Assembly: GCA_000723505.1 (NCBI GenBank)
Contig: HG934468.1
Span: forward strand, 1,458,798 to 1,522,797
Source: Mucinivorans hirudinis
GTDB lineage: Bacteria > Bacteroidota > Bacteroidia > Bacteroidales > Rikenellaceae
Direction: 5' to 3'
DNA length: 64,000 nucleotides
Shown: positions 9,426-32,220 of the stretch, one piece after another
Layout: every line of letters starts with the position of its first letter
How positions within the stretch are numbered: position 1 is the stretch's first letter
Notes under the pieces: generated by a model
The model's input: only the letters and a program-made list of their open reading frames with translations
Told to the model about the DNA's origin: nothing
Databases searched by the model: none
Program-made: the position numbers and the translations under genes

Positions 9426-9467
9426 ATGGTAGTTTTGGAAAATTTTGATAAGTATAAAAAGGAAAAT

Positions 9468-9914: not shown

Positions 9915-9958
9915 ACCAGAGAAAAGGTCACTTTCCCACTAAACCATTGCCCGATAAA

Positions 9959-11964: not shown

Positions 11965-11968
11965 TTTT

Positions 11969-13597
11969 ATGAGGAGACTATTTTTATTGATTTTACTGGC
12001 TCCCGCCTTGGCGTGGGGACAAGGGGAGGCTAAGTGGGACTATCGACTCGGCAAATCTATGGAGGAGCTGATGGCGGTTTTCCGCGAGGCAAACCTCTAC
12101 TATGTTGATTCGACTAACCCCGAGAGGATGTTGAAAGCGGCTGCCAAAGCTATGCTCAGCGGGTTAGACCCCTATACGGTCTACCTATCGGATGATGATA
12201 TGGCTGATTTCGAGACGCTTATCACGGGAAAATATGCCGGCGTGGGCGCGATGATTCGTCAAAAGGGGGATTGGGTGGAAATATCTGAGCCTAAGCGCGG
12301 TACGCCCTCGGACAAGGCAGGATTGAAAGCGGGCGACAGGTTGCTATATATCAATGACACCGACCTCAAAGGGCTCGGCTCAGAGAAGGTGAGTTCACTC
12401 CTCAGGGGTGAGCCCGGGACTTTTTTTGTCTTGAAATACAGGCCGTTGGCAGACACAGCCAAGACTAAAGAGGTTACAATCAAGCGCGAGACCATCACTC
12501 AGCCGAGTGTGCCTTACTTCGGATATGCGGCTGATAGTGTGGGATATATCCGTTTTGACAGCTTTACGGAGGATTGCTCAAAGGAGGTTCGCGAGGCAAT
12601 AGTGCAACTCGGTGAGGGGGGGATGAAGGCGCTGATTCTCGATTTGACCAGCAACGGCGGGGGCAGCGTGGGTGAGGCAATAAATATTGCGTCGTTCTTT
12701 CTGCCGCGGGGTAGTGAGGTGGTCTCGCTCAGGGGTAAGATTAAGGAGATGGATGCCAAATACACAACGAAAAACGCGCCGATTGAGCCAACAATTCCGC
12801 TTGCGGTGTTGATGGGACGCGAGAGTGCTTCGGCTTCCGAAATTTTGGCGGGAGCGCTACAGGACTTAGACCGCGCCGTGATTATCGGTGAACGGAGCTT
12901 TGGTAAAGGGCTGGTACAAAGTCCGCGACAAATTGGTAGTAACTCTATTTTGAAGGTTACAACGGCGAAGTATTACACCCCCTCGGGTCGTTGCATCCAA
13001 GCGCTAGACTACACCCACAGACGGGAGGATGGTAGCGTGGACAGCATTCCCGAGGTTATGCGCAAAGTGTTCACTACCAAGAATGGACGCATCGTGAAGG
13101 ATGGCGGCGGAATCGACCCCGACATATATATATCACCCGAATTTTTGGCAAATTTCACGGGATTGTTGTTGGCTTACGGTTACTTAGAGGATTTTGCAAA
13201 CCAATATGCAGCACACAATACTCACAGCAAAGAGTTTCGGGTTACTGACGCTCTCTACGATGATTTTATAGAGTTTATGCGCCACAAGGAGATGAGGTAT
13301 GAGTCGGCAACTGCCGTAAAGTTCGAAGAGCTAAGGCAATGGGCTGAGCGTGAAAAATATGCAGAGAGGCTGACCGAGGAATTTGCGGCAATAGAGCGAA
13401 AGATAAAGGAGGATAAAATCAAGGAGCTAAACACTTTTTCGAAGGAGATTAAGAACGTGTTGGAAAACGAGATTATCCGCCGCTGGTATTATGAGTGGGG
13501 TGCAATAGAACGCTCTTTGGAGCAGAACAAAGAGGTGAAGCGAGCGGTGGAAATTTTAGAGGACAAGGCGGAATACGAAAAATTGTTGGGAAGATAA
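11969..13597 (+). CDS. C-terminal processing peptidase, S41 family (CtpA/Prc type)
   Basis: A secreted or periplasmic serine protease of 542 aa. A signal peptide (MRRLFLLILLAPALAWGQG) is followed by a helical domain, a PDZ domain around GVGAMIRQKGDWVEI and GLKAGDRLLYIN (residues 90-160), and the S41 core. The catalytic Ser is in ESASASEIL and the Lys in GERSFGKGLVQ, the Ser/Lys dyad of tail-specific proteases. The C-terminal extension is charged and helical. ATG 11969 is chosen because it begins the signal peptide; longer starts lie inside ptuB. Confidence 0.92.
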   Translation: MRRLFLLILLAPALAWGQGEAKWDYRLGKSMEELMAVFREANLYYVDSTNPERMLKAAAKAMLSGLDPYTVYLSDDDMADFETLITGKYAGVGAMIRQKGDWVEISEPKRGTPSDKAGLKAGDRLLYINDTDLKGLGSEKVSSLLRGEPGTFFVLKYRPLADTAKTKEVTIKRETITQPSVPYFGYAADSVGYIRFDSFTEDCSKEVREAIVQLGEGGMKALILDLTSNGGGSVGEAINIASFFLPRGSEVVSLRGKIKEMDAKYTTKNAPIEPTIPLAVLMGRESASASEILAGALQDLDRAVIIGERSFGKGLVQSPRQIGSNSILKVTTAKYYTPSGRCIQALDYTHRREDGSVDSIPEVMRKVFTTKNGRIVKDGGGIDPDIYISPEFLANFTGLLLAYGYLEDFANQYAAHNTHSKEFRVTDALYDDFIEFMRHKEMRYESATAVKFEELRQWAEREKYAERLTEEFAAIERKIKEDKIKELNTFSKEIKNVLENEIIRRWYYEWGAIERSLEQNKEVKRAVEILEDKAEYEKLLGR

Positions 13598-13679
13598 GCA
13601 GCGAAAAATATTGAAATAATTATTTTTCACTACTTCAGTGATAGTAAAGAATAATCATATTGCTTGGGAAGGGGACAAC

Positions 13680-13697
13680 TCCTGCCCCCCCCCCTAT
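13680..13697. repeat. Ten-base poly-C tract upstream of leuS
   Basis: An uninterrupted run of ten C residues (13685-13694) about 20 bases upstream of the leuS start. It is intergenic. Homopolymers this long are prone to slippage and to sequencing error, so its exact length is uncertain. The rest of 13598-13715 holds no gene; an imperfect AT-rich inverted repeat surrounds CACTACTTCAGTG. Confidence 0.6.
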
Positions 13698-13715
13698 ACA
13701 GAGCTATAAATACTT

Positions 13716-16397
13716 ATGGAATACAACTTCAAAGAGATTGAGAGTAAGTGGCAACAAAGGTGGATTGCCGACAATACCTATAAAGTGGAGGTGGATGAGA
13801 GTCGCCCGAAATTCTATGTGCTCGATATGTTCCCCTACCCCTCGGGTGCGGGGCTGCACGTGGGACACCCACTCGGATACATAGCCTCAGACATTTACAG
13901 TCGCTACAAGCGTCAGAAAGGGTTCAATGTGCTCCACCCGATGGGGTACGATGCCTTTGGTCTGCCGGCGGAGCAGTATGCGATTCAGACGGGACAGCAC
14001 CCCGCTGTTACCACCGAGAAGAACATTGCGCGCTATCGCGAACAGATGGATAAAATCGGCTTTTCGTACGACTGGTCGCGAGAGGTGCGAACCTGTGACC
14101 CCGAGTACTACAAATGGACGCAATGGGCTTTCACTGAAATGTTTAACTCATACTACGACAAGGAGTTGAACAAGGCTATGCCCATTACTCACTTGGTTGA
14201 AAAGTTTGAGCGAGAGAATTTTTGTGGCTGGAACTCACTGGGCGAAGCTGAGCGTGAGGAGATTCTTGGGCGTGACTATCGTTTGGCATATCAGGCTGTT
14301 ACCACTGTGAATTGGTGCGAGGCGCTGGGCACAGTCTTGGCAAATGACGAGGTGAAGGATGGTCTTTCGGTTCGCGGCGGGCATCCCGTGGAGCAGAAGC
14401 CTATGAAACAGTGGTTGTTACGTGTGTCGGCATATGCACCCCGCTTGGTTGATGGGTTGGATAATTTGGAGTGGAGTGACTCTTTGAAAGAGATTCAGCG
14501 CAACTGGATTGGCAAATCCGAGGGGGCGACTATGTTCTTTCCCATTGAGGGTTCTCACAAAAAGTTGGAGATTTTTACAACCCGCGCCGATACCGTTTTC
14601 GGAGTTACATTTATGGTGCTTGCCCCTGAACACGAATGGGTTGGCGAATTGACCACACGTGAGCAGAAAGCGGCAATCGACGACTATATAGAGCAGACAA
14701 ACAAACGTTCCGAACGCGAGCGTATCGCCGAAACTAAGCGTGTGAGCGGCTGTTTTACGGGTTCTTACGCTCTCAACCCATTCAATGGAGTGCGAATTCC
14801 GATTTATATAAGCGACTATGTGCTTGTGGGTTACGGCACAGGAGCTATTATGGCAGTGCCTGCACACGACTCGCGCGACTATGCTTTTGCGAAATTTTTC
14901 AATTTACCAATTACGCCCATCATAGAGTGTGATATTTCGACACAAAGTTACGATGCGAAAGAGGGCAAACTCATCAATAGTGAGTTCTTGACGGGCTTAG
15001 AGGTGAGGGATGCTATCAAGCGGATGTTCGAGCAGATAGAGGAGCAAGGCGTTGGTTACAAGAAAATTAACTACCGTCTGCGGGATGCTATCTTCAGCCG
15101 TCAGCGTTACTGGGGTGAGCCGTTTCCTGTGAAGTACGAGGAGGGAATTGCGAGGGTGCTACCCATCGAGCAGTTACCTTTGGAGCTTCCTGCCATTGAG
15201 AATTTCAGCCCTACTTCGGATGGTCAGCCGCCCTTGGCGCGCGTTGAGGGGTGGGAGTATGAGACCTCCACAATGCCCGGCTTTGCCGGCTCGTCGGCAT
15301 ACTATCTGCGATATATGGACCCGCGCAACAATCAGGCTCTGGTTAGCCGCCGAGCGAATGAATACTGGGAGAATGTAGATTTATATGTCGGAGGAATTGA
15401 GCACGCTACGGGACACCTCATCTACTCGCGCTTCTGGAATAAGTTCCTCTATGACCTAGGCTATATATGCAAGGATGAGCCCTTCAAAAAACTTGTCAAT
15501 CAAGGTATGATTCAGGGACGCTCAAACTTTGTGTATAGAATCAAGGGAACTAATAGATATGTATCTCTTGGATTGAAAGGCGATTACGACACTCAGGAGA
15601 TACACGTCGATGTTAATATCGTTCGCAACGACGTTTTGGATTTGGAGGCGTTCCGTGCTTGGTCGCCCGACAACAAGGATGCGGAGTTTATTCTCGAGGA
15701 TGGAAAGTATGTCTGCGGTTGGGCTGTGGAAAAGATGTCCAAGTCGATGTACAATGTTGTCAATCCCGATATGATTGTGGAGAACTATGGTGCTGATACT
15801 CTGCGTATGTACGAGATGTTTCTCGGTCCATTACAGCAGAGTAAACCGTGGGATACTAATGGTATTGACGGTGTGCACAAGTTTTTGAAACGTCTGTGGC
15901 GAATTTGCGAAAACGCCACTGAGGTTGCGCCTACGGCGGTGGAGTTGAAAATACTTCATAAGACCATAAAAAAGGTTACGGAAGATATAGAAAACTTCTC
16001 GTTTAATACAGCCGTGAGTGCCTTTATGATTTGTCTGAATGAGCTTTACGACCAAAAGACAACTTCAAAAGAGATATTAAGAGAGCTTATTATTTTGATT
16101 GCCCCCTTCGCGCCCCACATTGCCGAGGAGATTTGGCAACAATTAGGTGGCGGCGGCACTGTTTGCGATGCTAAGTACCCTGTTTACGACGAAAAATATT
16201 TGGTAGAAAACTCGTTTAACTACCCTGTTTCCTTCAATGGTAAGACCCGTTTCAACCGTGAATTTGCGGTGGATATGGCTATTTCAGAGATTGAAGCGGC
16301 AGTGAAAGCAGACTCACAAACGGAAAAATATACAGAGGGACGAGCAATTAAAAAGGTGATAATCGTTCCCGGTAAAATCATTAATGTGGTGAGTTAA
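13716..16397 (+). CDS. leuS: Leucyl-tRNA synthetase
   Basis: Class I aminoacyl-tRNA synthetase charging tRNA-Leu. The HIGH-type motif is LHVGHPLGY (about 47-55), the editing domain (CP1) contains [19 protein letters not shown], and KMSKSMYN lies near residue 673. The C-terminal anticodon-binding and tail domains are present; 893 aa is typical. There is an insert between roughly 600 and 660 with repeated charged turns, common in Bacteroidota enzymes. Start ATG 13716 follows a 118-base intergenic gap. Confidence 0.97.
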
Positions 16398-16403
16398 AAT
16401 AGT

Positions 16404-17001
16404 ATGGCTAAATTGAAAGTTCTGCAGACAGAAATAGTAATTCTCAAGAAAGAACAAGAGGATTATATCTCACTGACCGATATTGCCAAGGTTCGCGATA
16501 GGGACAATCCCTCTCAAATAATAAGCTTATGGCTAAGGACTTATAACACAATAGAGTATATCGGATTGTGGGAGAAACTAAATAATCCACAGTTTAACCC
16601 CCACATTTATGAGGGGTTTAAGAGGGAGGCGGCAAAACCACATTTTTGGATGTCGCCGCAGAAATGGATTGTTGAGACGAATTCAATAGGAATCAATTCC
16701 TAATGAACTTAACCCTGCTCAAACTTCAATCATTTATGCCAACGAGGCTGATGTACTCAATGTGGCATTATACGGAATCACGGCAAGGCAGTGGAGAGAA
16801 TCAAACCCGGATTTGAAAGGAAACATAAGAGACTACTCGACTATTAATGAGTTGATTTGCTTGTCAAATATGGAGAATATTAATGCGGTTTTGATTAATG
16901 AAGGTGTTGAGCAAAAGGCTCGGCTCGTTAGACTAAACCAAATTGCAATCCAGCAGATGAGGGTGTTGCAAGAATTTGAAGATAGAAAATTTATTAAATA
17001 A
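16404..17001 (+). pseudogene. KilA-N domain protein, internally deleted
   Basis: The first frame (16404-16703, 99 aa) has a KilA-N DNA-binding start: ISLTDIAKVRD, a conserved WLRTYNTIEYIGLWE, and SPQKWIVETNSIGI, then stops at TAA 16701. A second frame, open from about 16696 to 17001, reads IPNELNPAQTSIIYANEADV, then LNVALYG and NPDLKGNIRDYSTINEL, which is the conserved C-terminal half of the same family. In intact relatives, as I remember them, about 100 residues separate these parts. The gene has therefore lost its middle and the frame. KilA-N proteins are common in phages and mobile elements. Confidence 0.8.
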
Positions 17002-17020
17002 CATCGTCTTTCGAGATAAA

Positions 17021-17911
17021 ATGAAAGCAAATAAAATTTTGAGCGAATTTCGTTCATTTCTAATCATCTCCGTGGGGCTGATGATATATTCATTTGCGTA
17101 TACAACACTCCTTATCCCCGCCAAGGTTATGGGCGGCGGTGCTACGGGTGTGGGTGTAATTGTCTATTACCTAACGGGTGGCGAGGCAGGTGGCGGCTTG
17201 CCTGTGGGTATGACCTACCTGCTCTTTAATGCTGTCCTGCTCACCATTGCGATGTTTGTGGTGGGTCCGAAATTCGGCATTAAAACAATCTATGCCATCG
17301 GTTTTAACTCTGTGGCACTGACGATGATGCAGAAGTTTATTCCCATAACCTTGCTCGGACTACAGGGCGACCCGCTGCTCTCGGCTATTCTGGGTGGTGC
17401 GCTTGCAGGGTTGGGCATTGCCATATGTTTCTCGCAGGGTGGCTCGTCGGGCGGCACGGATATTATCGCAATGATTGTCAATAAGTATCGCGATATTTCG
17501 CTTGGGCGAGTGATTATGATGGTCGATGTGGTGATTATAGGATGCTCCTACTTCGTATTCTATGAGCTGAGCACCATCATCTATGGTTATGTGACAATGG
17601 GCGTGCTGGGCTATACGATAGATTTGGTGATGAATGGCAATAAGCAGTCGGTACAGATTATGATTTTTTCTACAAAATCGGAAGAGATTGCGCAGGTGAT
17701 TATAGGCTCTTCAACGCGTGGGGTAACACTCTTGGACGGCGTGGGGGCTTACACCAAGAATCCCCAAAAAGTGGCTGTTCTGGTTTGTCGCAAAAATGAG
17801 GCTAACATTTTTTATAAAATTATTAAAGAGGTAGACCCGCACGCTTTCATCACCTCGGCAAGCGTTATGGGAGTCTATGGTAAAGGCTTTGAGCCACTGA
17901 GAACTAAGTGA
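17021..17911 (+). CDS. YitT family (DUF161/DUF2179) membrane protein
   Basis: The 296-aa protein has five or six membrane helices in the first 200 residues (LIISVGLMIYSFAYTTLLIP, VGMTYLLFNAVLLTIAMFVV and others). The GGSSGGTDIIAMIVNKY motif is typical of YitT proteins. A C-terminal cytosolic DUF2179 domain follows (about 210-290, VTLLDGVGAYTKNPQKVAVLVC). Function is unknown; transport of a small ligand has been suggested for the family. Start ATG 17021. The GTG start of the next gene overlaps its stop codon, so both are likely co-translated. Confidence 0.85.
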   Translation: MKANKILSEFRSFLIISVGLMIYSFAYTTLLIPAKVMGGGATGVGVIVYYLTGGEAGGGLPVGMTYLLFNAVLLTIAMFVVGPKFGIKTIYAIGFNSVALTMMQKFIPITLLGLQGDPLLSAILGGALAGLGIAICFSQGGSSGGTDIIAMIVNKYRDISLGRVIMMVDVVIIGCSYFVFYELSTIIYGYVTMGVLGYTIDLVMNGNKQSVQIMIFSTKSEEIAQVIIGSSTRGVTLLDGVGAYTKNPQKVAVLVCRKNEANIFYKIIKEVDPHAFITSASVMGVYGKGFEPLRTK

Positions 17912-19185
17912 AAAAAAGAGTCTATTTAATTGTTTTGGCAGCACTCGCGCTTGCGATTTTTATTGCAGGCACGGGGCTGATTATTCGTGGATGCGACAGG
18001 AATTCTGCTGCCGATGTTGCCCTTGGGGGCGGCGTTGAGCGTTTAGAGAAAATTTTATTGCCCGAAAATCAATCGCTTCTGTATGGCTTGCCGGTGGAGG
18101 ATTTCGAGATTGAGGAGGGTGAGATAGAGCGCGGCGAGACTTTTTCTAAGTTGCTCAATGGCAGATATGGTTTGCCGATGGGAACTGTCAACCGGTTGGT
18201 GGAGCTGGCAAAAGGGGTATTCGACCTCAGGGATATGCGAGCGGGCAACAGCTATACTGCTTTTATATCATATGACAGGGATAGTGTGCAGTCAATCAGT
18301 TATTTGGTGTATGACAAAAGCAATACAGAGTATCTGCTTTTTGATTGCGTAGCTCCGTCGGTAAAGGTTATTAAGCGCGAGGTGCGTGTGGTGGAGCGCG
18401 CAGCCTCGGGGGTGATAAACTCGAACCTCTATCAGACAATTTTTGACAATAAATTGCCATATGAATTGGCGAATCGCCTCGACAATATTTTCAAGTATTC
18501 GATTGATTTCTATGCACTTCAAAAGGGCGATAGCTTCAAGGTCATCTACGAAGAGATACTTTCGGACACCACCGTCATAGGCGTTGGCAGGATTTATGGT
18601 GCTGAGTTTTCGCACGGCGGAAAGTCTTATCTGGCAGTTAGTTTCGAGCAGGGTTCGGAAAAAGGCTACTGGGATGCAAACGGTGTCAATCTACGCAAAG
18701 ACCTGCTCAAGTCGCCACTTAGCTTCTCGGCACGCATAAGCTCTAAATTCGGAATGCGCATCCACCCGATTCGGCGTATACCGCAGAAACACAACGGTGT
18801 AGACTATGCCTGCCCGATGGGTACGCCTGTTCTTGCGGTGGCGAATGGTACGGTCGTTTCGGCGGGCTGGGACAAGGGCGGGGGAGGAAATACGCTCAAA
18901 GTGCAACACTCTCAGGGGCTTACCTCCGGCTATCTGCATTTGAGAAATTTTGCGAGCGGCATAAAGCGCGGGGTGCGGGTCTCTCAGGGGCAGGTTATTG
19001 GTTATGTGGGTAGTACGGGGCAGAGTACGGGACCTCACCTTGATTTTAGAATTTGGAAGAGTGGCACTCCCGTGAACCCTCTTTCGATGCAGGGTGCGCC
19101 TGCTGAGCCTATTAGCGGCGCAAACAAGGTGGCATTCAACAGAATGCGCGATGATGTGATAAAGGAATTGAAAATTGATAATTAA
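17908..19185 (+). CDS. M23 family metallopeptidase (LytM/peptidoglycan hydrolase type)
   Basis: A 425-aa membrane-anchored protein: one N-terminal hydrophobic segment (LIVLAALALAIFIAGTGLII), a middle region with an OapA/LysM-like stretch, then a C-terminal M23 domain. HNGVDYACPMGTPV supplies the first zinc-ligand His and Asp, and GYLHLRN plus GPHLDFRIW supply the remaining His residues. It probably cleaves peptidoglycan cross-links in the periplasm. The start is GTG 17908, overlapping the previous TGA. Confidence 0.88.
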   Translation: MKKRVYLIVLAALALAIFIAGTGLIIRGCDRNSAADVALGGGVERLEKILLPENQSLLYGLPVEDFEIEEGEIERGETFSKLLNGRYGLPMGTVNRLVELAKGVFDLRDMRAGNSYTAFISYDRDSVQSISYLVYDKSNTEYLLFDCVAPSVKVIKREVRVVERAASGVINSNLYQTIFDNKLPYELANRLDNIFKYSIDFYALQKGDSFKVIYEEILSDTTVIGVGRIYGAEFSHGGKSYLAVSFEQGSEKGYWDANGVNLRKDLLKSPLSFSARISSKFGMRIHPIRRIPQKHNGVDYACPMGTPVLAVANGTVVSAGWDKGGGGNTLKVQHSQGLTSGYLHLRNFASGIKRGVRVSQGQVIGYVGSTGQSTGPHLDFRIWKSGTPVNPLSMQGAPAEPISGANKVAFNRMRDDVIKELKIDN

Positions 19186-23988: not shown

Positions 23989-24029
23989 AAAAAAAAGGGT
24001 AGTGTAAAAACAAATTTTCACACTACCCC
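23989..24029 (-). terminator. Rho-independent terminator of the phage-head cluster
   Basis: On the minus strand, stem GGGTAGTGT (24028-24020) pairs with ACACTACCC (24005-23997), then runs into eight T residues (complement of A 23989-23996). It lies just after the last small gene of the cluster and before the alcohol dehydrogenase, isolating the two units. Confidence 0.85.
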
Positions 24030-24037
24030 TACTCATT

Positions 24038-24220
24038 TTACCCCTGCCCGTCGCAAAACTTCACATATCTCAAATAGGCGCGATAGCCGATTCCGAACTT
24101 CGGGAAAATATGCCGTCGCCACACCTGCTTCAGGCAGCGGTCTGCTCTGCCCTTTTCGTAGTATTGCTCCGTGATTTGCGCAATGTTGCGGGCGCGAATT
24201 TCGTAACCCTTGCTACTCAT
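24038..24220 (-). CDS. Small protein at the end of the phage-head cluster
   Basis: A 60-aa basic protein (MSSKGYEIRARNIAQITEQ). The motif-like stretch RCLKQVWRRHIFPKFGIGY is rich in Arg, Lys and aromatics, suggesting nucleic-acid or protein contact, but the family is not recognised. The start overlaps the end of the preceding gene by eight bases. An in-frame ATG ten codons upstream is possible. Confidence 0.6.
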   Translation of the reverse strand: MSSKGYEIRARNIAQITEQYYEKGRADRCLKQVWRRHIFPKFGIGYRAYLRYVKFCDGQG

Positions 24221-24578
24221 TCTCCACCTCTCTTTCTGCACAATCGGCACGGCGACAGGTGCTCATCTTCAACTTTTTGCGAATGGTCTCTTGGTTGAGC
24301 AAATCAATCTCCAACTGATTGGTACGGCGCAACATATCGAGGATTTGCAGCCGCTTGTCGTTGATTATATCCTGCATACGGTCAATTTCGGTGTAAGCCT
24401 CCGAGAGCTGGCGGCTGAGAAACTCGACCGACTGACGGTGAATGTCAAACTCATTGCGGCGCACATCCAACTCTGCCGACGAAGCCTCGGCTGCCTGCTT
24501 GCGTTTGTGCTGCGAGTAGAAGAGTATCAACCCGCTCCCCAGAAGCAGGTTCAATATTAACGAAACTATCTCTATCAT
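24213..24578 (-). CDS. Membrane-anchored coiled-coil protein of the phage-head cluster
   Basis: A 121-aa protein: one N-terminal membrane helix (IVSLILNLLLGSGLILFY), then a long charged helix with heptad spacing (residues about 30-105), ending in CRRADCAEREV. The topology resembles small phage membrane proteins (holin-associated or spanin-like), but that is only an analogy. It overlaps the preceding gene by four bases (ATGA), so it belongs to the same transcript. Confidence 0.65.
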   Translation of the reverse strand: MIEIVSLILNLLLGSGLILFYSQHKRKQAAEASSAELDVRRNEFDIHRQSVEFLSRQLSEAYTEIDRMQDIINDKRLQILDMLRRTNQLEIDLLNQETIRKKLKMSTCRRADCAEREVENE

Positions 24579-25714
24579 AGCACTATGCCTCTTGCAGCAC
24601 GCGACTGCGGTTCATACTCGGGAAACAGCTCCGCATTTCTTTCCACATAACGTATAGCCCGCGTGAGGAGGATATTGGCATCGGCAAAGGCGCGCGATTT
24701 TATTATCCTGCGTTGGAAGTCTGTGGCGGCGCGGCGGTTGCGGGTTTGGGAGCTGCGGCGGTTGTCGTCGGTGAGCTTGCCTTCGCGCGTCTCTGATTGG
24801 GTGCGGGTGGAGTGGAGCTCGCGGTTGCGGGTGTCGTTATTCTCGGCTGTGACGGTTTCGGTGGAGCTCTGCTCTGCACTCTCGGTAACAGTTTGGTTGT
24901 CAGTCTGTTCGGTGGTAGTGTTTTTGGAGTTGTTTGCCGTCTCTTTGGTTTCGGCGCTCTCGTTGCTGCCGCCGTCGTGGTTGCCGCTCACCTCAATGTC
25001 GCGGTTGTTGTTGTCGGTGCCGTTCTTCACCAATTTGTTGGTCTCGTCATTGTAATCCATCGAATAGCCCACTGTGCTCACGCCGACCGAAACCGGACCC
25101 TCATTGAACTGATAATCCCGCACCTTGTCATAACGAATGGTGGTATTATCGGTGGCATTGTGAGACCTCTTTTCCACCTCTTCGGTAACGTTACGCGTAA
25201 AATCGCTGAAATCCTTAGTCGCAGTCACATTTACGGTCGATGAGATTTTATCAGCCTGCAACTCACTCTTATCCAGCGTTGTCTCCACATCTTTCGATGC
25301 TGTTTTGTCGGCTGTAGCCTCTGTCGTTTTCGTGGACTCCGCCTGAGATTGAGTTTTAGCTGTTTCGTCTCGTTCGGCATCAACCTGTGCCTGAGCGCTT
25401 TGCAGCTGTTCGCGGGTGAGGTTGCTTTCGGATTCGCGAGCATCGAAGGTTACTGCTCCGTTATCGCTCATCTGGATAGATAGCTCATCCACAATCGAAT
25501 AGCGAACATAGTGAGCCAATGCGGGTTTGATATACTCCGCAACAAAGGGGGCATACTCTCCTTCATTAAATCTCTCGAAGAGTTCATCGCCAAATCGCGG
25601 GCGGATATATTTTTCGGCAGCCACTGCAATTTTTGCATCGCGAATGGCTTGGTGTGTAATATCTTCTGAAGGCGAGAATGCTAATTCCCGCACTTCACTT
25701 GCTGTGATTATCAT
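24575..25714 (-). CDS. Putative head-tail connector protein with large low-complexity insert
   Basis: The 379-aa protein has an N-terminal helical domain (residues 1-95, EDITHQAIRDAKIAVAAEKY, YIKPALAHYVRYSIVDEL) and a short C-terminal helical domain (NILLTRAIRYVERNAELFPEY), which together look like a phage connector or adaptor. Between them lie about 240 residues rich in S, T, N, E, D and K, with many threonine- and asparagine-rich stretches, probably disordered. It follows the portal gene, which suits a connector role; the identification is inferred from position and helical pattern. Start ATG 25714 is used; an in-frame GTG is three codons upstream. Confidence 0.6.
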   Translation of the reverse strand: MIITASEVRELAFSPSEDITHQAIRDAKIAVAAEKYIRPRFGDELFERFNEGEYAPFVAEYIKPALAHYVRYSIVDELSIQMSDNGAVTFDARESESNLTREQLQSAQAQVDAERDETAKTQSQAESTKTTEATADKTASKDVETTLDKSELQADKISSTVNVTATKDFSDFTRNVTEEVEKRSHNATDNTTIRYDKVRDYQFNEGPVSVGVSTVGYSMDYNDETNKLVKNGTDNNNRDIEVSGNHDGGSNESAETKETANNSKNTTTEQTDNQTVTESAEQSSTETVTAENNDTRNRELHSTRTQSETREGKLTDDNRRSSQTRNRRAATDFQRRIIKSRAFADANILLTRAIRYVERNAELFPEYEPQSRAARGIVL

Positions 25715-25740
25715 TTTTAACACTGATTATTAGTTCCAAC

Positions 25741-25812
25741 CTAAATGTCCTAAATGTCCTAAATGTCCTAAATGTCCTAAATGTCCTAAATGTCCTAAAT
25801 GTCCTAAATGTC
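25741..25812 (-). repeat. 9-bp tandem repeat array, 8 units
   Basis: Eight perfect copies of CTAAATGTC (minus strand GACATTTAG). On the minus strand the array starts immediately after the portal stop TAG (25815-25813), and each unit recreates TAGGACATT, so an in-frame TAG recurs every nine bases. It fills almost all of the gap between the portal and connector genes. Confidence 0.95.
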
Positions 25813-26991
25813 CTACCGTCCTATAAACGCTTGCTCCGCCGCATCCTCCGGGTCATAATCGAGTCCATCTTCGCGCCGCGCCTCCCAGATTCGCATATAG
25901 GGGGCTTTGGTGGAGAAGGGCGGCTTGTTGATAAAGGCGAGCGATGAGCAATCAGTGCCTAATATCTTCTTTACCACTGTTTTAATAGGCTCAATTAGTT
26001 CCGATTGTTCGACGGTGATAACCGAATTGAGCGCAATATTATACTCATTGATAATACGTTCCGCCGAAAATCCGGTCGAGTAGTTGAGCCCGCTCAGGGT
26101 AATGAACCACGAATGAGCAACGACAATGTCATAGGTCGCCTGCTCGTGTAGCCCGCGCCAATCGCCCTCGGTGGCGGCGGTCAGGGGTACAAATTTTGTG
26201 GTGTCGCCCTCGGCGGCGTTTTTTACTATGAACATCACCTGCCCCGGCTTGCCCGCAAATTTCTTCTCAGCCTGCCGCGCAATCTGCACAGCCTCCTCCT
26301 CGGTATCAACCTCGCCGTCGAGCACCATTATGCCCGAGGGTTGGAACGAATTATCCAACCGCGACACATTCCAACGGTCTGTCTTATAGGCTATCGATGC
26401 CGCGCCGAGTGCGGCGATATACTTGGGCAGCCCATAGTTCTCTGCCATTGGCTCGTAGTCCTTGTAGTGGAGCATAGCGCGTAGAGTGCCGTCCGTCATC
26501 TTCGTAAAGAGCGGGTAGAGGGATATTTGCGCCGCCTCACCCTTTTTGAATTTGCTCCAATCGTGGTGTAGGACAACATATTTTCTGTCTTTACTCAATC
26601 GACATTTCGATGCGTCTTGGTGGTAGAGGGACAAAAAGCTACCCGTGCTGTCGGTCACAATCTCTACAAAAGCGTTGCCGAAAAGGCACTTATCGAACGC
26701 CACCTTTTGGAGTACATTTCTCAGGGTTTCACGTTGTCCGTTAGCGTTTTTCACCAGAAAGTCGAGTCGCGGATTGCTCTCGTCTGCCGAAAAACCGCGT
26801 CCGGCGATGTAGTCCGCCTTATCGTTGATTATGCGTCGATGGGTGGCAGATTGTCGTGCAAGGTTTGCAAGGGCTACGGGCAGCAGGTTGTCACTCCCCC
26901 ACTTCCACACCTCATTCACCGCCACACCCTTAGAGAGTGTCATTAACGCGCCGCTCGTTTGGTTTATGGGTAATATTATTGATTTTTTCAT
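25813..26991 (-). CDS. Phage portal protein
   Basis: A 392-aa protein with the portal pattern: an N-terminal region WGSDNLLPVALANLARQSAT followed by HRRIINDKADYIAGRGF, a central beta/helix part (GNAFVEIVTDS, SLYPLFTKM), a YGLPKYIAALGAASIAYK segment, and a C-terminal helix with YNIALNSVITVEQSELIEPI. Portals form the 12-subunit ring through which DNA enters the capsid. It appears full length and free of internal stops. In this cluster it follows the capsid gene, whereas many phages place it before the protease and capsid. The stop TAG merges into the 9-bp repeat array. Confidence 0.82.
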   Translation of the reverse strand: MKKSIILPINQTSGALMTLSKGVAVNEVWKWGSDNLLPVALANLARQSATHRRIINDKADYIAGRGFSADESNPRLDFLVKNANGQRETLRNVLQKVAFDKCLFGNAFVEIVTDSTGSFLSLYHQDASKCRLSKDRKYVVLHHDWSKFKKGEAAQISLYPLFTKMTDGTLRAMLHYKDYEPMAENYGLPKYIAALGAASIAYKTDRWNVSRLDNSFQPSGIMVLDGEVDTEEEAVQIARQAEKKFAGKPGQVMFIVKNAAEGDTTKFVPLTAATEGDWRGLHEQATYDIVVAHSWFITLSGLNYSTGFSAERIINEYNIALNSVITVEQSELIEPIKTVVKKILGTDCSSLAFINKPPFSTKAPYMRIWEARREDGLDYDPEDAAEQAFIGR

Positions 26992-27010
26992 TTCGTAGTT
27001 TCGATTTCTC

Positions 27011-27124
27011 GTTTTTCTTTTGGTTCATTTCTTTTTAAGAAAATAACGATTAGAGCTTGTAACAGTAACTAATCGTTCTTTTTCTTTTTTTGAAAAAAAA
27101 GAAAAAGAACCAAAAAGAAAAAAA
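27011..27124. repeat. Nested inverted repeats between capsid and portal genes
   Basis: Three overlapping inverted repeats: an outer pair GTTTTTCTTTTGGTTC (27011-27026) with 27106-27124; an inner pair AACGATTAG (27045-27053) with CTAATCGTT (27069-27077); and a near-perfect 17-bp pyrimidine/purine palindrome 27075-27091 with 27093-27110. The outer arm and the palindrome share the GAAC segment, so they compete. Runs of T and A dominate. This occupies most of the 149-base gap between the capsid and portal genes. Confidence 0.75.
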
Positions 27125-27140
27125 CTTTAATGAGCAGTAA

Positions 27141-28124
27141 CTACACCGAGAATGATGCCACAATCAGCTCAGGCAACAAGTAGTCGCACCCCGCAGCAAA
27201 GATTGCACGCTGACGATTCTCGATTTGGTCGGGGTTATACCACATCGAAACCTCCGAACCCGGAAAATCCGCCGTATTGACAGCCACAGCCATATTGCGA
27301 CGGTCGGTGAGTATTGCCCACGACTTTGGTAGGTCACTTAAATCAGCAAGATATGTATCTGCCTGAATATCAACCACGGGAATGCCGCGGTAGTATAGCT
27401 TATCGATGCCGCTAATCTTCGCCAAACGCGCCGAATCCAAGTTGCCATCCAGCAACCCCGCCTCATAATTCTCATACACATCACGCGTTACCAAGAAGAC
27501 GAGTTGTCCCTCGGCTTTCATCGAGCGAAGCTCGGGCAAACTCTTGTCATATAGGGCTTTGAATAGCTTTTCGGCATTGCCGGCAGTGGTCATCGAGGTC
27601 ATCGCAACCGTTTTTACATCGTCCGCACCCGCTCCTGCATCGGCTTTGATTTTCTTCAAAAATCCGTCAAAGGTATTGTAACCATTAGCACGAGAGGTGT
27701 TTCCCACCCACATTGTGGCGCGAATGCTCTCTACGATTGCCTTCTTAAATAGCTCGGTCTCGGCGGTTTCGAGCTCTGTTCCCTCCAAGTTGTCGAAATC
27801 GACATCGCTGCGCCCGGTGATTTGCTCATAAACCATTCCGAAGTAGTCCGAAGCCGAGTAGCCCATCTCTGCCTTAACCTTGCTCAGGTCGATGGTTTTT
27901 TGGAATTTTTGCGATGCACTGTCTGTACCCGCCCAACCCTTTGCATACTTTTTTAGCAGGTCTGACCCCTGCTTCCAAAAGTTTAGAGTCGTGGGCACAG
28001 GCATATTATATAGCACTTTAACTCCCAAATCAACAGCCGATTGACCCATAAGCACCGGGCGGAAAAATATTTTTTCAAGGTCGCTGCCCTGATAGTTTTT
28101 TGAATTTGAAATTATTTTTGTCAT
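27141..28124 (-). CDS. Putative major capsid protein
   Basis: The 327-aa protein starts MTKIISNSKNYQGSDLEKIF. Its features fit an HK97-fold capsid: an early loop region, a long central helix area (ETAETELFKKAIVESIRATMWVG), a beta-rich C-terminal part (YYRGIPVVDIQADTYLADL, SWAILTDRRNMAVAVNT, then MWYNPDQIENRQRAIFAAGC). Located after the ClpP-like protease, where capsid genes usually sit. No scaffold domain is visible. The family is assigned by position and fold pattern, not by a clear motif. Confidence 0.72.
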   Translation of the reverse strand: MTKIISNSKNYQGSDLEKIFFRPVLMGQSAVDLGVKVLYNMPVPTTLNFWKQGSDLLKKYAKGWAGTDSASQKFQKTIDLSKVKAEMGYSASDYFGMVYEQITGRSDVDFDNLEGTELETAETELFKKAIVESIRATMWVGNTSRANGYNTFDGFLKKIKADAGAGADDVKTVAMTSMTTAGNAEKLFKALYDKSLPELRSMKAEGQLVFLVTRDVYENYEAGLLDGNLDSARLAKISGIDKLYYRGIPVVDIQADTYLADLSDLPKSWAILTDRRNMAVAVNTADFPGSEVSMWYNPDQIENRQRAIFAAGCDYLLPELIVASFSV

Positions 28125-28204
28125 TGTTTTTTTTGAATGTTAGTTCCGTCATTGCCGCGGAAGCGACAAAGACAGTAAATGTTAATAGTTTGTTAATACC
28201 TTGT

Positions 28205-29059
28205 TCAGACCACCGTCGAACGAAACGCCTCAATATCCTGACTGTAAGCCATCTGATTAGCTGAAAAGGTATTTGTTAATAACTCCACGGCAGGGTCTTC
28301 TTTTGCCAAAGTGGGAGTAGGCAAAGCCTTGGCTTGTGCGTCGGGCATCTCCACGGCGGGTGCTGCATTCTGCACATCCCACTCCTGGGAACTTCGGGAG
28401 TAGAAGCCACGTGGGTTGCGCGGCAGAATCCAGTCGCGAATCTTCTTACCCATACGCGTAAGGTACGAAATATCGACAACCTCGTCCGCCAACCCTGCCG
28501 CAAGAACCTCCTGCGGTGTGAGCCACTCGCCGGCGCCGGCATTCATCTGCATCAAGCTGTTGAACTCCTCGCTGCTCTTACCCGAGCGTGAGGCATAGAG
28601 GGCGGCAATACGCTCATCTGTCTTGCTGAGCAGCCGCGAGGCTTGCTCTATCTCGCCCGCGTTACCATCGACGCTCATAGTAGCCTGATGGACAAGGTAT
28701 AGCGTATCGCTGGTAACCTTGCGAACATCGCCCGCCTGTGCTATGATTGTTGCAGCCGAGGCTACATATCCGTGGCAAATGGTCTCGATGGTGGCATTCT
28801 CGAGCGAGCGCAACGCCTCGTATATCAACAGCGCATCTTCCACACTGCCCCCTCGCGAGCGAATGTTTACGCGCACGTGGTTCGCTCTGAGTTCGCGAAT
28901 CTCGCCCAAGAGGGTGCGAAACCGCTCATATGTTGCCACTCTTTCATCCTCCGAGGGGAACTGCCACGTCTCAGGCGTGCCGATAACTCCCTCAATATCA
29001 ATTACGACCATTCCCGCCGTGCGGTGGTACATCTTTATTATGTTTTCGTTTTGGTTCAT
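28205..29059 (-). CDS. ClpP-like prohead (head maturation) protease
   Basis: The 284-aa protein has a ClpP/S14 fold in its first 200 residues. IRSRGGSVEDALLIYEAL is the classical G-G-S-V region, Ser101 in GYVASAATIIAQAG is the nucleophile, His124 in YLVHQAT the base. The C-terminal 80 residues, after VVDISYL, are unlike ClpP and may be a scaffold, as in many HK97-type protease-scaffold fusions. It overlaps the upstream gene by four bases and sits 80 bases before the capsid gene. Confidence 0.85.
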   Translation of the reverse strand: MNQNENIIKMYHRTAGMVVIDIEGVIGTPETWQFPSEDERVATYERFRTLLGEIRELRANHVRVNIRSRGGSVEDALLIYEALRSLENATIETICHGYVASAATIIAQAGDVRKVTSDTLYLVHQATMSVDGNAGEIEQASRLLSKTDERIAALYASRSGKSSEEFNSLMQMNAGAGEWLTPQEVLAAGLADEVVDISYLTRMGKKIRDWILPRNPRGFYSRSSQEWDVQNAAPAVEMPDAQAKALPTPTLAKEDPAVELLTNTFSANQMAYSQDIEAFRSTVV

Positions 29060-29292
29060 TGTATAACGTTGGCGTTAATGTAGTTTTCGTAGAGCATCTC
29101 ACCCATCTCGCGCGAGCGAATGGTACGAATTATGGCAACCCTTTTGTCTGCTAACTGGTCAGTTGATAGTACGCCTATGTTGTAGGCTACTAATATTTTG
29201 GCGTAGTCGGCTACGCAAAGCGTCAAGTAAGGGTCTTGCTCTGTGTGGCAAATGTTTTGGCACAGAAAATCGAGAAATGATATATTTTCCAT
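29056..29292 (-). CDS. Small protein between TerL and the prohead protease
   Basis: The 78-aa protein starts MENISFLDFLCQNICHTEQD and is mostly helical (YLTLCVADYAKILVAYNIG). Not recognised. ATG 29292 is preferred because the in-frame extension up to 29331 is encoded by AAATCAC heptamer repeats. It overlaps the protease start by four bases, so it is translated as part of the head cluster. Confidence 0.65.
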   Translation of the reverse strand: MENISFLDFLCQNICHTEQDPYLTLCVADYAKILVAYNIGVLSTDQLADKRVAIIRTIRSREMGEMLYENYINANVIQ

Positions 29293-29295
29293 AGA

Positions 29296-29327
29296 GTTGT
29301 GATATGTGATTTGTGATTTGTGATTTA
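29296..29327 (-). repeat. 7-bp tandem repeat AAATCAC, about 3 units
   Basis: The plus strand shows GTGATTT three times, with a fourth degenerate unit (GTGATAT), directly upstream of ATG 29292 of the small head-cluster gene. Minus-strand unit AAATCAC. Seven bases is not a multiple of three, so a change in copy number would alter spacing or frame of any upstream start. Confidence 0.7.
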
Positions 29328-29335
29328 GCACCGAC

Positions 29336-29418
29336 CTACCCGTCCTACCCGTCCTACCCGTCCTACCCGTCCTACCCGTCCTACCCGTCCTACCCGTCCT
29401 ACCCCGTCCTACCCCGTC
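29336..29418 (-). repeat. 9-bp tandem repeat array, 7 perfect units plus two 10-bp variants
   Basis: Seven perfect copies of CTACCCGTC (29336-29398) followed by two CTACCCCGTC units with one extra C (29399-29418). On the minus strand the unit is TAGGACGGG and the first TAG is the terminase stop codon (29421-29419). It has the same 9-bp period, TAGGAC core and position relative to a stop codon as the array after the portal gene. Confidence 0.95.
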
Positions 29419-30882
29419 CTAAAAACCCACCAAAAACACCTTTCGTTTTGCGTGTGTAATTTCGGTTTCGATGATTCCGGTGAGGGTGTCGGCGGCATCG
29501 TCGTGTGCATTGGCACGAAAGTTGCGGCGCAGGCAGGTGAGTTCATCGGCAAACTCACGCCACCGCTGCTGCCAACCTTCGGGCATTAATATTCGGCTCA
29601 TCACTGCCGAGGCGTTGGTTAGGATTCGCGACTCCTTGTTCGCCCCTTGGTGAAAGCATTTGATGAGGGTGGCGGGTGCAAGTTTTTGCACGGCTCTGGC
29701 AAAGCCTCGCCCGCCGTTGTTGCTCTCTATCACGGCAGTGGCAACGCGGTTTCGGCTAAGCATTGCGGCAACTTCAAGCTCGGTAACCTCCATCGGTTCG
29801 GGGGAGTAGATAACGTCAATAATCCGAATAAACCCTTCATCGTCCACCGCATAGCAGACCGAGCATAGGCGGTCGTTGCCCGTGTCTGCAACGTCGGTGT
29901 AGTTCAGTATTTTTTCGTAGTAACCACCACTCTCATACGTTTGGAAATGGCTATACAAAAATCCCTCTTTGCTTCGCGGATTTCCTTGGTAAAGTGCCTC
30001 AAAAACGGAGGGGTCTAAGCGGCGTTTTTGCTCTAATAGCTCTAATGAGTGGCGCTCCTTCCACAGTGGTTCTGAGCGTGGACGACTGTCCAGCTCCGTG
30101 GGGGCACTCTCCTTGATAGCCTCAAAGTTTACTCGCGCCCATTCGTCGGGTTGCAATCGCGAAATATCACTAAATGATACTATGTCAATAATCTTTTCGG
30201 ACTTTGCGAGCCGCCCAATCAAATCATCTTCGTGCCAGCGGGTAAAGACCACAATCTCGCGCGAGTTGTTGTGTAGCCTTGTACGCACCACGGAGGTGTA
30301 CCAATCCCACGCCGCCTCCCGCACAAGGGGTGAGTTTGCCTCGGCAGCATCCTTGTAGAGGTCGTCCAAAATCATCACATCCACGCGGTTACCCGTGAGT
30401 GAGCACTCACGTCCGACAAGTCGAAGACCACCCTCCGCCCCCACGATATCGAACTCGTCTGCCGTTCTGAGTGCCGTTTCACCCTTCTCCGTCTGCCTCA
30501 TCCCCTTGAGGAAGGTTTGCGGAAAAATCTTTTCGTACTCCGGACTGTCTATCACTCGTTGCACCGATAGTCCGAATCGCCGCGCGAGAGAGAAGGAGTA
30601 TGAGCCGATACAGATTCTCAGATTGGGGTCTAAACCAAGCATATAAGCGGGTAGCAGTGTGGATGTTCCGAGGCTTTTGCCGTGCTGCGGCGGGACGGAA
30701 ATCATTAGTTTGCAAATTTCACCACGTGCAAAGTGGTCTAACAACTGATAAAAGTTGCGGTGAAAATCAGTTAGTGATAACCTTGGCACGACTTTTGCTG
30801 CAAACTCTGTGAATGACCGCCTAAGTAGCTCGCGTTCTAATTCCTGTTTAGTTATTTTTATTTTGTTTGTCTTGTTTGTCAA
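29419..30882 (-). CDS. Phage terminase large subunit
   Basis: A 487-aa packaging motor. The ATPase half has Walker A PPQHGKS (64-70) and Walker B VDVMILDD (about 168-174) with FTRWHEDDLIGR after it. The nuclease half has DVADTGND (near 325), IESNNGGRGFARA and the final acidic AHDDAADTLTG. All expected acidic residues appear intact, so the enzyme looks functional. It overlaps the upstream gene by four bases. Its length and motif set fit the TIGR01630-type terminases found in Bacteroidota prophages. Confidence 0.9.
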   Translation of the reverse strand: MTNKTNKIKITKQELERELLRRSFTEFAAKVVPRLSLTDFHRNFYQLLDHFARGEICKLMISVPPQHGKSLGTSTLLPAYMLGLDPNLRICIGSYSFSLARRFGLSVQRVIDSPEYEKIFPQTFLKGMRQTEKGETALRTADEFDIVGAEGGLRLVGRECSLTGNRVDVMILDDLYKDAAEANSPLVREAAWDWYTSVVRTRLHNNSREIVVFTRWHEDDLIGRLAKSEKIIDIVSFSDISRLQPDEWARVNFEAIKESAPTELDSRPRSEPLWKERHSLELLEQKRRLDPSVFEALYQGNPRSKEGFLYSHFQTYESGGYYEKILNYTDVADTGNDRLCSVCYAVDDEGFIRIIDVIYSPEPMEVTELEVAAMLSRNRVATAVIESNNGGRGFARAVQKLAPATLIKCFHQGANKESRILTNASAVMSRILMPEGWQQRWREFADELTCLRRNFRANAHDDAADTLTGIIETEITHAKRKVFLVGF

Positions 30883-31145
30883 TTAATTTGTTGTAAAATG
30901 TCTTTGAGTGTTGTTTCGGAGAGTTGTTTGAGGTCGATTGTGATTGTGCGTTCTTCGGTTACGGGGGCGGCCGCCTGTGTCTTGCCGTCATAGCCTAATA
31001 GTTTCATACGCAGTTCTATGCAGCGTTCGACACCTTGCAGTAGTCTGACATCCTCACTCTGTGAGAAACTTTGCCGATAAAGCTCCTCGAGTGTGTCCAA
31101 TCGCTGGATAAGGTCTTTGACCTGTGGGGGATATTTCAGAGCCAT
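30879..31145 (-). CDS. Small protein upstream of TerL, candidate small terminase subunit
   Basis: An 88-aa helical protein (PPQVKDLIQRLDTLEELYRQ, GVERCIELRMKLLGYDGK). Its place directly before terL with a 4-base overlap is the usual one for the DNA-recognising small terminase subunit, and the helical pattern is compatible, but there is no diagnostic motif or obvious helix-turn-helix. Identification is therefore positional. It overlaps the first gene of the cluster by ten bases. Confidence 0.6.
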   Translation of the reverse strand: MALKYPPQVKDLIQRLDTLEELYRQSFSQSEDVRLLQGVERCIELRMKLLGYDGKTQAAAPVTEERTITIDLKQLSETTLKDILQQIN

Positions 31146-31372
31146 TTTAGTAGAGTGTCTATGTTAAATTCTACTCCGCATCGGTGTCCGTCCTCGAAAC
31201 CGATTGTGCACCACTGTTGAAGGAAACCTTGTGCGAGGTCGAAACCGAATAGTAGCTCCTTGCTGCCGATAGCAAGCTCCACCACCCCGCAGCAGAGGTC
31301 GTCGCCCGCCGCCGCCTGCTTTGTAATCTCTATTGCCAACTCTTCGTAGAGTTTATCATCAAAAACTATCAT
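31136..31372 (-). CDS. First gene of the phage-head cluster, unknown
   Basis: A 78-aa acidic protein starting MIVFDDKLYEELAIEITKQ. It has several Cys residues (DDLCCGVVELA) and a repeating hydrophobic pattern. No family is recognised. It is the promoter-proximal gene of the leftward operon and is divergent from the repressor gene 31528-32220. Confidence 0.6.
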   Translation of the reverse strand: MIVFDDKLYEELAIEITKQAAAGDDLCCGVVELAIGSKELLFGFDLAQGFLQQWCTIGFEDGHRCGVEFNIDTLLKWL

Positions 31373-31391
31373 TGTTTGATAAATTTTTTGT

Positions 31392-31399
31392 TACCTTTG
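31392..31399 (+). promoter_or_regulatory. Possible promoter of the repressor gene
   Basis: TACCTTTG on the plus strand with TTG about 17 bases upstream. A transcript from here would cross the degenerate 9-bp repeats and operators before the repressor ATG at 31528. The -33 match is weak. Confidence 0.4.
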
Positions 31400-31407
31400 T
31401 GTGTCTA

Positions 31408-31461
31408 TTGGGACATTTTGGACTTTTAAGTCTTTTAGGACTTTTGGGTCTTTTGATGGGA
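31408..31461 (+). repeat. Degenerate 9-bp repeat array in the divergent intergenic region
   Basis: Read on the plus strand in 9-base steps: TGGGACATT, TTGGACTTT, TAAGTCTTT, TAGGACTTT, TGGGTCTTT, TGATGGGAC. The consensus is close to TAGGACTTT, the same core as the arrays after terL and the portal gene, but on the opposite strand and diverged. It lies between the divergent promoters. Confidence 0.6.
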
Positions 31462-31493
31462 CAAAGATAATATCAATTAATGATATTTGCAAA
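31462..31493 (-). promoter_or_regulatory. Promoter of the phage-head cluster
   Basis: On the minus strand TTTG (31493-31490), spacer of exactly 20, TATCTTTG (31469-31462). This is a full match to the Bacteroidota consensus. It drives the leftward operon 31372-24038. The spacer is filled by a palindrome (31470-31486), so repressor binding would block it. Confidence 0.75.
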
Positions 31494-31505
31494 TCATTCA
31501 ATGAT
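31470..31505. promoter_or_regulatory. Operator-like palindromes
   Basis: ATATCA-N5-TGATAT (31470-31486) lies inside the promoter spacer, and ATCATTCAATGAT (31493-31505), a perfect palindrome, lies just upstream of the -33 box. Both share the half-site TGAT and sit between the cluster and the CI/LexA-like regulator, the usual place for repressor operators. Confidence 0.6.
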
Positions 31506-31527
31506 ATTTTTATAATTATTTTTTGAG

Positions 31528-32220
31528 ATGAGTTCCGATTCCCGATTCCCGATTCCCGATTCTCGCCTCCTTCAAGCGCGTAAGTTTCTGGGAATGACTC
31601 AGAAGCAGATGTCCGAGATTTTGCAAATCGGGCAGAATGCCTATTCTATGATTGAGAACGGTAAAATAAAACTTACCGACCGCAACCGCCATATCCTCAC
31701 CGACCGTCTAAAAATCAACCCCATTTGGTTGGACACGGGCATCGGCGATATGATGTTGGACACCACTCCGCGCCGCGCAATGGTGCAGACCTGCAATGCA
31801 GAGCAACATCGCGGAGTCCCCTTTTTCAACAAACCTGTAACAGGCTCGCTCCTCATATCATTCGATGATATGGCACGCGATACGCCCGAGTATAATATTG
31901 ACTACAAACCTTTTAACGATTGTACATTCTATCGTCCCGTCTATGGCGAGAGTATGTCGCCAAAGTTTAATTCGGGCGACGTGGTGGCTTGTAAGCGGGT
32001 TGTGAACAAGGAGTTAATCCTCTATGGAGAGACCTATCTCTGTATGGTGAAGTTGGACAGCGACTTCTACGAGACCATAAAAATCCTTCGCAAGCACAAG
32101 CAGCAACCCGAAAAAATAATACTGAAACCTCTCAACCCCAACTACGACGAGACCGAAGTTCCTCTTGATGCCATCATAGACCTATATATAATAAAGGGGA
32201 AAATCGAACGTAATTTGTAA
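31528..32220 (+). CDS. XRE/S24 phage-type repressor (CI/LexA-like)
   Basis: The 230-aa protein has an N-terminal helix-turn-helix (about 14-62, RKFLGMTQKQMSEILQIGQN, AYSMIENGK) and a C-terminal S24 peptidase-like domain: nucleophile Ser142 in YGESMSP and a Lys-containing ETIKIL strand. Such proteins repress a lytic operon and cleave themselves after RecA activation. A canonical Ala-Gly cleavage site is not obvious. Its first 12 residues are encoded by heptamer repeats TCCCGAT. It is divergent from the phage-head operon and five bases upstream of a DUF2148 gene. Confidence 0.85.
   Translation: MSSDSRFPIPDSRLLQARKFLGMTQKQMSEILQIGQNAYSMIENGKIKLTDRNRHILTDRLKINPIWLDTGIGDMMLDTTPRRAMVQTCNAEQHRGVPFFNKPVTGSLLISFDDMARDTPEYNIDYKPFNDCTFYRPVYGESMSPKFNSGDVVACKRVVNKELILYGETYLCMVKLDSDFYETIKILRKHKQQPEKIILKPLNPNYDETEVPLDAIIDLYIIKGKIERNL
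31533..31561 (+). repeat. 7-bp tandem repeat TCCCGAT inside the repressor start
   Basis: Four units (the first TTCCGAT, then three TCCCGAT) begin six bases into the repressor coding sequence. As the unit is 7 bp, gain or loss of one copy shifts the reading frame. The repeats encode the stretch SDSRFPIPDS. Confidence 0.85.

Follow-up and report, generated by a model that had tools for sequence, protein, structure and literature searches.

The 64,000-nucleotide stretch of the Mucinivorans hirudinis genome considered here (contig HG934468.1, positions 1,458,798 to 1,522,797; hereafter the window) contains a head and packaging operon of ten leftward open reading frames (ORFs) at 24038-31372, with an S24-type repressor gene transcribed divergently beside it (Table 1). 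Its genes belong to a scattered, selection-protected head and packaging set in the Rikenellaceae, which suggests a gene transfer agent (GTA) not described before. A first-pass annotation, made from this stretch of DNA alone, had recognised a large terminase (TerL), a ClpP-like prohead protease and capsid, portal and connector candidates in the ten genes, and the ORFs and hidden Markov model (HMM) matches confirm this assignment, as do the helix-turn-helix (HTH) and peptidase domains matched in the divergent XRE/S24 repressor. The inverted repeat between repressor and operon and the terminator-like hairpin behind the last gene were both located. The description of the genes as tightly overlapping is slightly overstated, as five of the nine junctions overlap by 4-38 nt but the other four have gaps of 80-149 nt.

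Table 1. Features of the head and packaging unit, in window coordinates and in the leftward order of the operon.
Feature	Coordinates	Strand	Matches and remarks
Divergent S24-type repressor (HTH + Peptidase_S24)	31528..32220	+	PF12844 2.7e-10; PF00717 3.8e-9
Inverted repeat, candidate operator	31469..31508	.	16-nt arms, 88% complementary; between repressor and operon
78-aa ORF	31136..31372	-	No Pfam match; position matches the conserved ~95-aa gene preceding TerL in 27 other loci
88-aa ORF	30879..31145	-	No convincing family match
Large terminase TerL	29419..30882	-	phrog_38 5.9e-91 (HMM)
91-aa protein	29056..29331	-	No family match in Pfam/PHROG-type profile searches
ClpP-like prohead protease	28205..29059	-	phrog_94 9.9e-36; PF00574 4.5e-24
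Major capsid protein candidate	27141..28124	-	phrog_1623 7.2e-9
Portal protein	25813..26991	-	phrog_11226 1.1e-24; PF04860 7.9e-13
DUF6712 protein, candidate head completion/connector	24575..25723	-	PF20459 8e-11
121-aa protein	24213..24578	-	Hydrophobic N-terminal stretch and coiled coil (by eye); present also in same-genus locus L037
70-aa protein	24038..24250	-	Function not assigned (ORF list, HMM searches)
Terminator-like hairpin	23997..24028	.	14-nt arms, then T run leftward; behind last gene

Profile searches found no convincing-score match to tail, lysis, integrase or replication families among the ten operon proteins, and no integrase is present among the window genes tested, in agreement with the annotation, which had also reported no flanking attachment (att) repeats. 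A two-copy direct repeat of 19 nt (89%; 22235 and 32848) does bracket the unit but is taken as chance, because it encloses neighbouring genes and one of its copies lies inside a WbqC-like gene; no better pair was listed and there are no convincing att repeats. A complete prophage would combine, at a single locus, genes for its tail, replication, integration and lysis, and none of these is recognised in the window unit. The GC content of the operon (0.503, against 0.481 for the window) is near the host value, and its codon use is close to that of the host (r=0.895 against eight other window genes).

Relatives of TerL are present in 52 of 61 Rikenellaceae genomes and in none of 40 genomes drawn from the order's other families. 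For the capsid the corresponding figures are 49 and none, and for the portal 49 and one, the latter at 30% identity. The capsid gives one match per genome, while TerL has two similar copies in genome G036 and a distant second copy in each of G011 and G059; these second copies (loci L072 and L073) are ~35% identical, lack an S24 partner and probably derive from ordinary prophages. Sampling 393 genomes evenly across the order yielded eight capsid matches, three of them outside the family (one strong 96-residue fragment and two weak) and five within it, the latter a count of matches and not a share of the family genomes drawn. In a scan of genome contigs, the best 80 of 227 loci are labelled Rikenella, Millionella, Alistipes, Tidjanibacter or Rikenellaceae, with the exception of one labelled 'Bacteroidales bacterium'. 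Phage-derived head and packaging genes are kept by most members of this host lineage, as they are for a GTA.

TerL and capsid are retained or lost together, with both present in 49 genomes, TerL only in three, capsid only in none and neither in nine (Fisher p=1.3e-8). They commonly do so from separate places. Across 40 TerL neighbourhoods of 12-20 kb each, the portal gene adjoins TerL in four (G041, G002, G010 and G029), all from the window's genus or the adjacent one, and the window itself is alike. Elsewhere TerL is accompanied by a divergent S24 gene, to which 27 loci add a conserved ~95-aa gene, and where TerL and the head genes lie on the same contig they are from ~9 kb (G058) to >700 kb (G049) apart. 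Eleven of the 20 head loci, spanning four genera, share a neighbour that resembles RNase HII by eye. The dispersal of the genes over several chromosomal loci, without replication or integration genes, is also characteristic of a GTA; this absence was tested by profile for the window genes and read by eye only in the flanks of the other loci.

Phylogenies were compared for the 34 genomes having all four genes, the split TerL of G009 and the divergent TerL loci L072 and L073 being excluded beforehand. The head-gene and TerL trees each have 16 of 31 splits in common with the LeuS tree, against maxima of 2 and 3 under random relabelling, and their Mantel correlations with LeuS (r of 0.69 and 0.64, respectively) were matched in none of 2000 permutations. 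Head and TerL trees share 17 of 31 splits (Mantel r 0.54), and all three trees place the window with the Rikenella/Millionella genus at a support of 0.99-1.00. Inheritance is mainly vertical, as in GTAs, and as the congruence is incomplete there is room for either exchange or poor resolution.

These patterns bear on the suggestion in the first-pass annotation that the unit is a Bacteroidales satellite. Capsid-forming phage-inducible chromosomal islands (cfPICIs) have their own heads and packaging genes but no tail genes, and are mobile single loci with an integrase and att sites. The window unit is similar in having head and packaging genes without tail genes, under repressor control, and phage terminase and tape-measure-like genes elsewhere in the genome could belong to helper phages from which tails are borrowed. 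However, the set is mostly single-copy, nearly confined to one family but spread throughout it, inherited largely vertically with host-like trees, and split over chromosomal loci in relatives, with housekeeping flanks at the window; no integrase is recognised beside the window unit, and relatives carry tail-type genes of their own. We dropped the satellite explanation because of this distribution, the trees and the dispersal, and regard it as highly improbable. The alternative offered by the same annotation, a domesticated DNA-packaging unit, fits the family-wide distribution, the co-loss, the largely host-like trees and the purifying selection.

Selection was estimated from pairs with protein identity of 0.72-0.995 and dS of 0.05-1.6, in which some genomes appear twice under two locus identifiers. 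Median NG86 ratios of non-synonymous to synonymous substitution (dN/dS) are 0.163 for the capsid (122 pairs), 0.195 for the portal (268), 0.198 for TerL (18), 0.177 for the DUF6712 protein (18), 0.184 for the protease (35) and 0.199 for f3 (12), one of the structural families described below, and the highest single value is 0.48. As comparisons with the window are mostly saturated at silent sites, values for the tail-less clade were taken from loci of its sister genus, Rikenella/Millionella, which is also tail-less: 0.05-0.09 for capsid, ~0.10 for portal, 0.15-0.21 for TerL and 0.17-0.33 for protease. The TerL Walker A motif is identical in 38 of 38 sequences and the nuclease acids in all 37 with letters there, bearing out the view of TerL as intact, and the catalytic Ser and His of the protease are nearly invariant in an alignment whose cut-off lies above the short ClpP copies. 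Purifying selection thus acts on structural and packaging genes, as in a GTA, and the proposed check for frameshifts or relaxed selection in terL and portal found reading frames intact in nearly all genomes.

The head loci of relatives (L080-L099, n=20) have the order (f10) f5 f6 f3 f7 ClpP capsid f8 portal DUF6712, and some continue with a holin (PF05105), an endolysin-like protein (phrog_873) and DUF6549. Counted with profiles built from the same loci, f3, f6, capsid, portal and DUF6712 are each present in 20 of 20, f5 in 19 and f8 in 17; f3, f5, f6, f8 and f10 have no Pfam or PHROG family match. ClpP also matches in all 20, four of the matches being short (L080, L081, L087 and L099, from G056, G011, G035 and G030, respectively). 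In these only ~100-150 aa are matched, and the protease domain seems to be lost with the C-terminal scaffold-like tail (by eye) kept. Uncultivated Bacteroidales-type phage contigs from IMG/VR (L192-L195 and L200) have the same structural order as far as they cover it, but differ in an extra ~1000-aa gene between f3 and f7, which is a tape measure by profile in the two tested, and L200, the one contig checked for it, has an integrase. In the Rikenellaceae loci <1 kb separates f3 from the gene that follows it. A tape measure hidden elsewhere was considered and rejected: with a profile made from four phage tape measures, 9 of 37 family genomes had partial matches, but no match lay on a head locus or was a single-copy orthologue, although a diverged one could escape.

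Structure models suggest what two of these families are. The f8 model (pLDDT 82) resembles tail tubes of SPP1 (Z 8.6), lambda gpV (Z 8.3-8.4) and RcGTA (Z 7.5), and f8 is predicted to be a tail-tube-like protein; a Foldseek search gave no match at E 0.001 or better, so f8 is assigned by the consistency of its matches, which are uniformly tube proteins. The f3 model (pLDDT 87) resembles tail hubs, including the phage 7-7-1 baseplate (Z 12.1) and a Mu baseplate chain (Z 11.1), and contains an inserted knob-like domain similar to the phi812 spike knob (Z 10.3) and to C1q/TNF-like domains (Z 8-9), so that f3 is predicted to be a tail-hub-like protein. Most Rikenellaceae keep these tube- and hub-like genes beside the head genes, without a tape measure there. 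The annotation had proposed looking for tails in relatives, and the outcome is mixed: no locus read looks like a full prophage, but genes with tube and hub folds adjoin the head genes in most.

The window's branch has gone further. No match to f3, f6 or f8 was found in the window genome or in three other genomes of its genus; in the neighbouring genus f6 has no match in five genomes, f8 has none in the two drawn, and f3 has none in two, with three others giving only weak N-terminal matches at other places. Genome-wide searches for f8, the tape measure and DUF6549 covered 37 family genomes (G041, G048 and G055 lying outside the f8 search), and the absence of tail genes refers to f3, f6 and f8, with f5 and f10 outside the genome-wide searches. 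The recognised tail genes are gone in this branch, and the head genes are still under selection.

Such graded loss could reflect an old prophage remnant that is shrinking on its way out, and the stops in some genomes and the protease domain missing at four of 20 head loci would also fit. But dN/dS of 0.05-0.2 at dS near 1, frames intact in nearly all genomes, the co-retention of separated loci, and frames that stay open in G029 despite repeats between the genes all argue otherwise, and we consider a remnant quite improbable. Alternatively, the capsid unit may have been domesticated for a role other than transfer, such as packaging host DNA for removal, storage or release at cell death, or serving as a compartment, in which case lineages would lose tails because tails are dispensable. 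The loss of tail-type genes in the window's clade with continued constraint on the head genes, and the absence of f8 from three of 20 other head loci, are consistent with this. Against it, a plain compartment could do without TerL, protease and portal, all three of which are retained, and the knob-like domain on the hub that most relatives still have hints at contact with another cell. A role of this kind seems unlikely.

The regulator is a further recurring feature of the TerL loci. A divergent S24 homologue is present at 33 of the 40 TerL places read; at L036 and L042, in the Rikenella/Millionella genus, an AraC-family regulator takes its position, and at L039 a related N-terminal domain is matched there. 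Most S24 proteins of the family contain an EGTAGL stretch, GDSM and a TVK lysine, which we take to be LexA-like self-cleavage features, and the Ala-Gly of the first is missing in the window and G002 copies. Between the S24 gene and TerL, many TerL loci have a strongly conserved site, TTGAACTTATATTTG-N4-GCAAAGTTAAACAATTT, and a promoter-like element, TGTATAA-N-TTTG, both preceding the ~95-aa gene; at least 24 of 32 positions of the site are conserved at many of the 33 loci scored.

Taken together, we favour, with a probability of roughly 0.65, a family-wide, dispersed and domesticated GTA-like system that is reduced to a tail-less head in the window. A tailed Bacteroidales phage ancestor would have lost its integration, replication and tape-measure genes, leaving a TerL and S24-repressor pair and a structural cluster (tail hub, tube, protease, capsid, portal and connector, with lysis genes in some) that now form one or two chromosomal loci. 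The Rikenellaceae would have inherited this system largely vertically, the window being its Rikenella-clade version. Release of the repressor, or of the AraC-type regulator that takes its position in Rikenella/Millionella, would start the system; the capsid would assemble with portal and protease, and TerL would presumably fill the head with host DNA, since there is no phage genome bearing a packaging mark. Lysis would then follow and the DNA reach kin cells. In the window's clade, with tube, hub and f6 gone, the particle would therefore be a tail-less, DNA-filled head. Tentatively, that head could itself be the useful product, a bacterial machine rather than a phage-style injector, which may serve tail-free export of DNA to kin, perhaps by another uptake route, or DNA disposal.

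Several observations weigh against a GTA-like system. Nine of the 61 family genomes have neither TerL nor capsid, several of these being incomplete assemblies, and stops occur within the TerL match in five of 52 genomes (clearly splitting it in G009) and within the portal and capsid matches in one of 49 each. The trees are only partly congruent (normalized Robinson-Foulds distance 0.45-0.48), and capsid against TerL alone gives a Mantel r of 0.29. No operator common to TerL and head loci was found: the site between S24 and TerL does not occur convincingly ahead of head genes, so a shared regulon is not supported, and the TGTATAA element does not recur before them. The window has no recognised lysis gene, holins and lysins not having been searched genome-wide, and DUF6549 fails as a lysis marker, its two copies in the window genome (one full, the other truncated) lying outside the window. 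Particles are predicted here from gene content, and a study of virus particles from the guts of three donors names the Rikenellaceae once, as abundant in total DNA and not among GTA events (PMC12946183). A search of open-access papers, with preprints and most subscription papers outside its reach, found no GTA in Rikenellaceae, Alistipes or Bacteroidales.

RcGTA retains its tail cluster in full, whereas the window's clade has no recognised tail genes, a comparison of gene content and not of gene sequences; the predicted fold class of f8 is nonetheless that of the RcGTA tail tube. Domesticated, largely vertical head and packaging genes are also a feature of RcGTA and its alphaproteobacterial relatives (PMC7947584). 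A closer likeness is to the Faecalibacterium agent FpGTA, which has a ten-gene operon with a possible small terminase (TerS) that has no DNA-binding domain, a second locus that in one strain lies ~125 kb off, and particles with no identifiable tails that contain 8.4-8.9 kb of host DNA (PMC12946183). Both systems have some ten genes, TerL, portal and capsid among them, and a separate second locus of further structural and lysis genes, a likeness of described architecture and not of sequence. They differ in phylum, in the podovirus-like character of the FpGTA proteins against an ancestor here with tape measure, tube and hub, and in the spread of the present system over a whole family with its parts dispersed differently.

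If the GTA reading is correct, Alistipes and its relatives, which are common in the gut, would have an additional means of exchanging genes. The graded tail loss with heads under selection is a natural experiment on whether such a particle needs a tail, and in cultured strains the separate co-inherited loci make terL and the capsid gene easy to knock out.

Among the smaller genes of the window, the 78-aa ORF is equated with the ~95-aa gene by position and by eye only. The 88-aa ORF is 25-34% identical to counterparts in four loci of the same and sister genus and is possibly a small-terminase remnant without a DNA-binding domain. In the same-genus locus L037 the 121-aa gene is followed by an M23 peptidase and DUF6549, both of which the window lacks there. 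The ClpP-like protease has a C-terminal scaffold-like tail as judged by eye, and the DUF6712 protein a long low-complexity insertion. Arrays of 9-bp tandem repeats (CCTAAATGT, CCTACCCGT) occupy two of the operon gaps, at 25731-25811 and 29335-29397, and at L042 (G029) a recurring repeat-like sequence lies between the head genes (8426-18505), with every ORF still open.

The flanking genes tested match housekeeping-type families. To one side of the unit these are an ion channel, a LEA_2-like protein, WbqC and an iron alcohol dehydrogenase; to the other they are DUF2148, a LeuA-type synthase, an AIR-synthase-related protein and a member of the acetate kinase family. A 7.4-kb contig from human faeces titled Bacteriophage sp. 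(MT838736.1, L102) carries f5-f6-f3-f7-ClpP-capsid-f8-portal and is probably Rikenellaceae DNA. Elsewhere in the window genome, a single contig of 3.149 Mb, two TerL_ATPase matches of equal score (L001 and L002, at G000:C1:82461 and G000:C1:453564) suggest a duplicated ordinary prophage.

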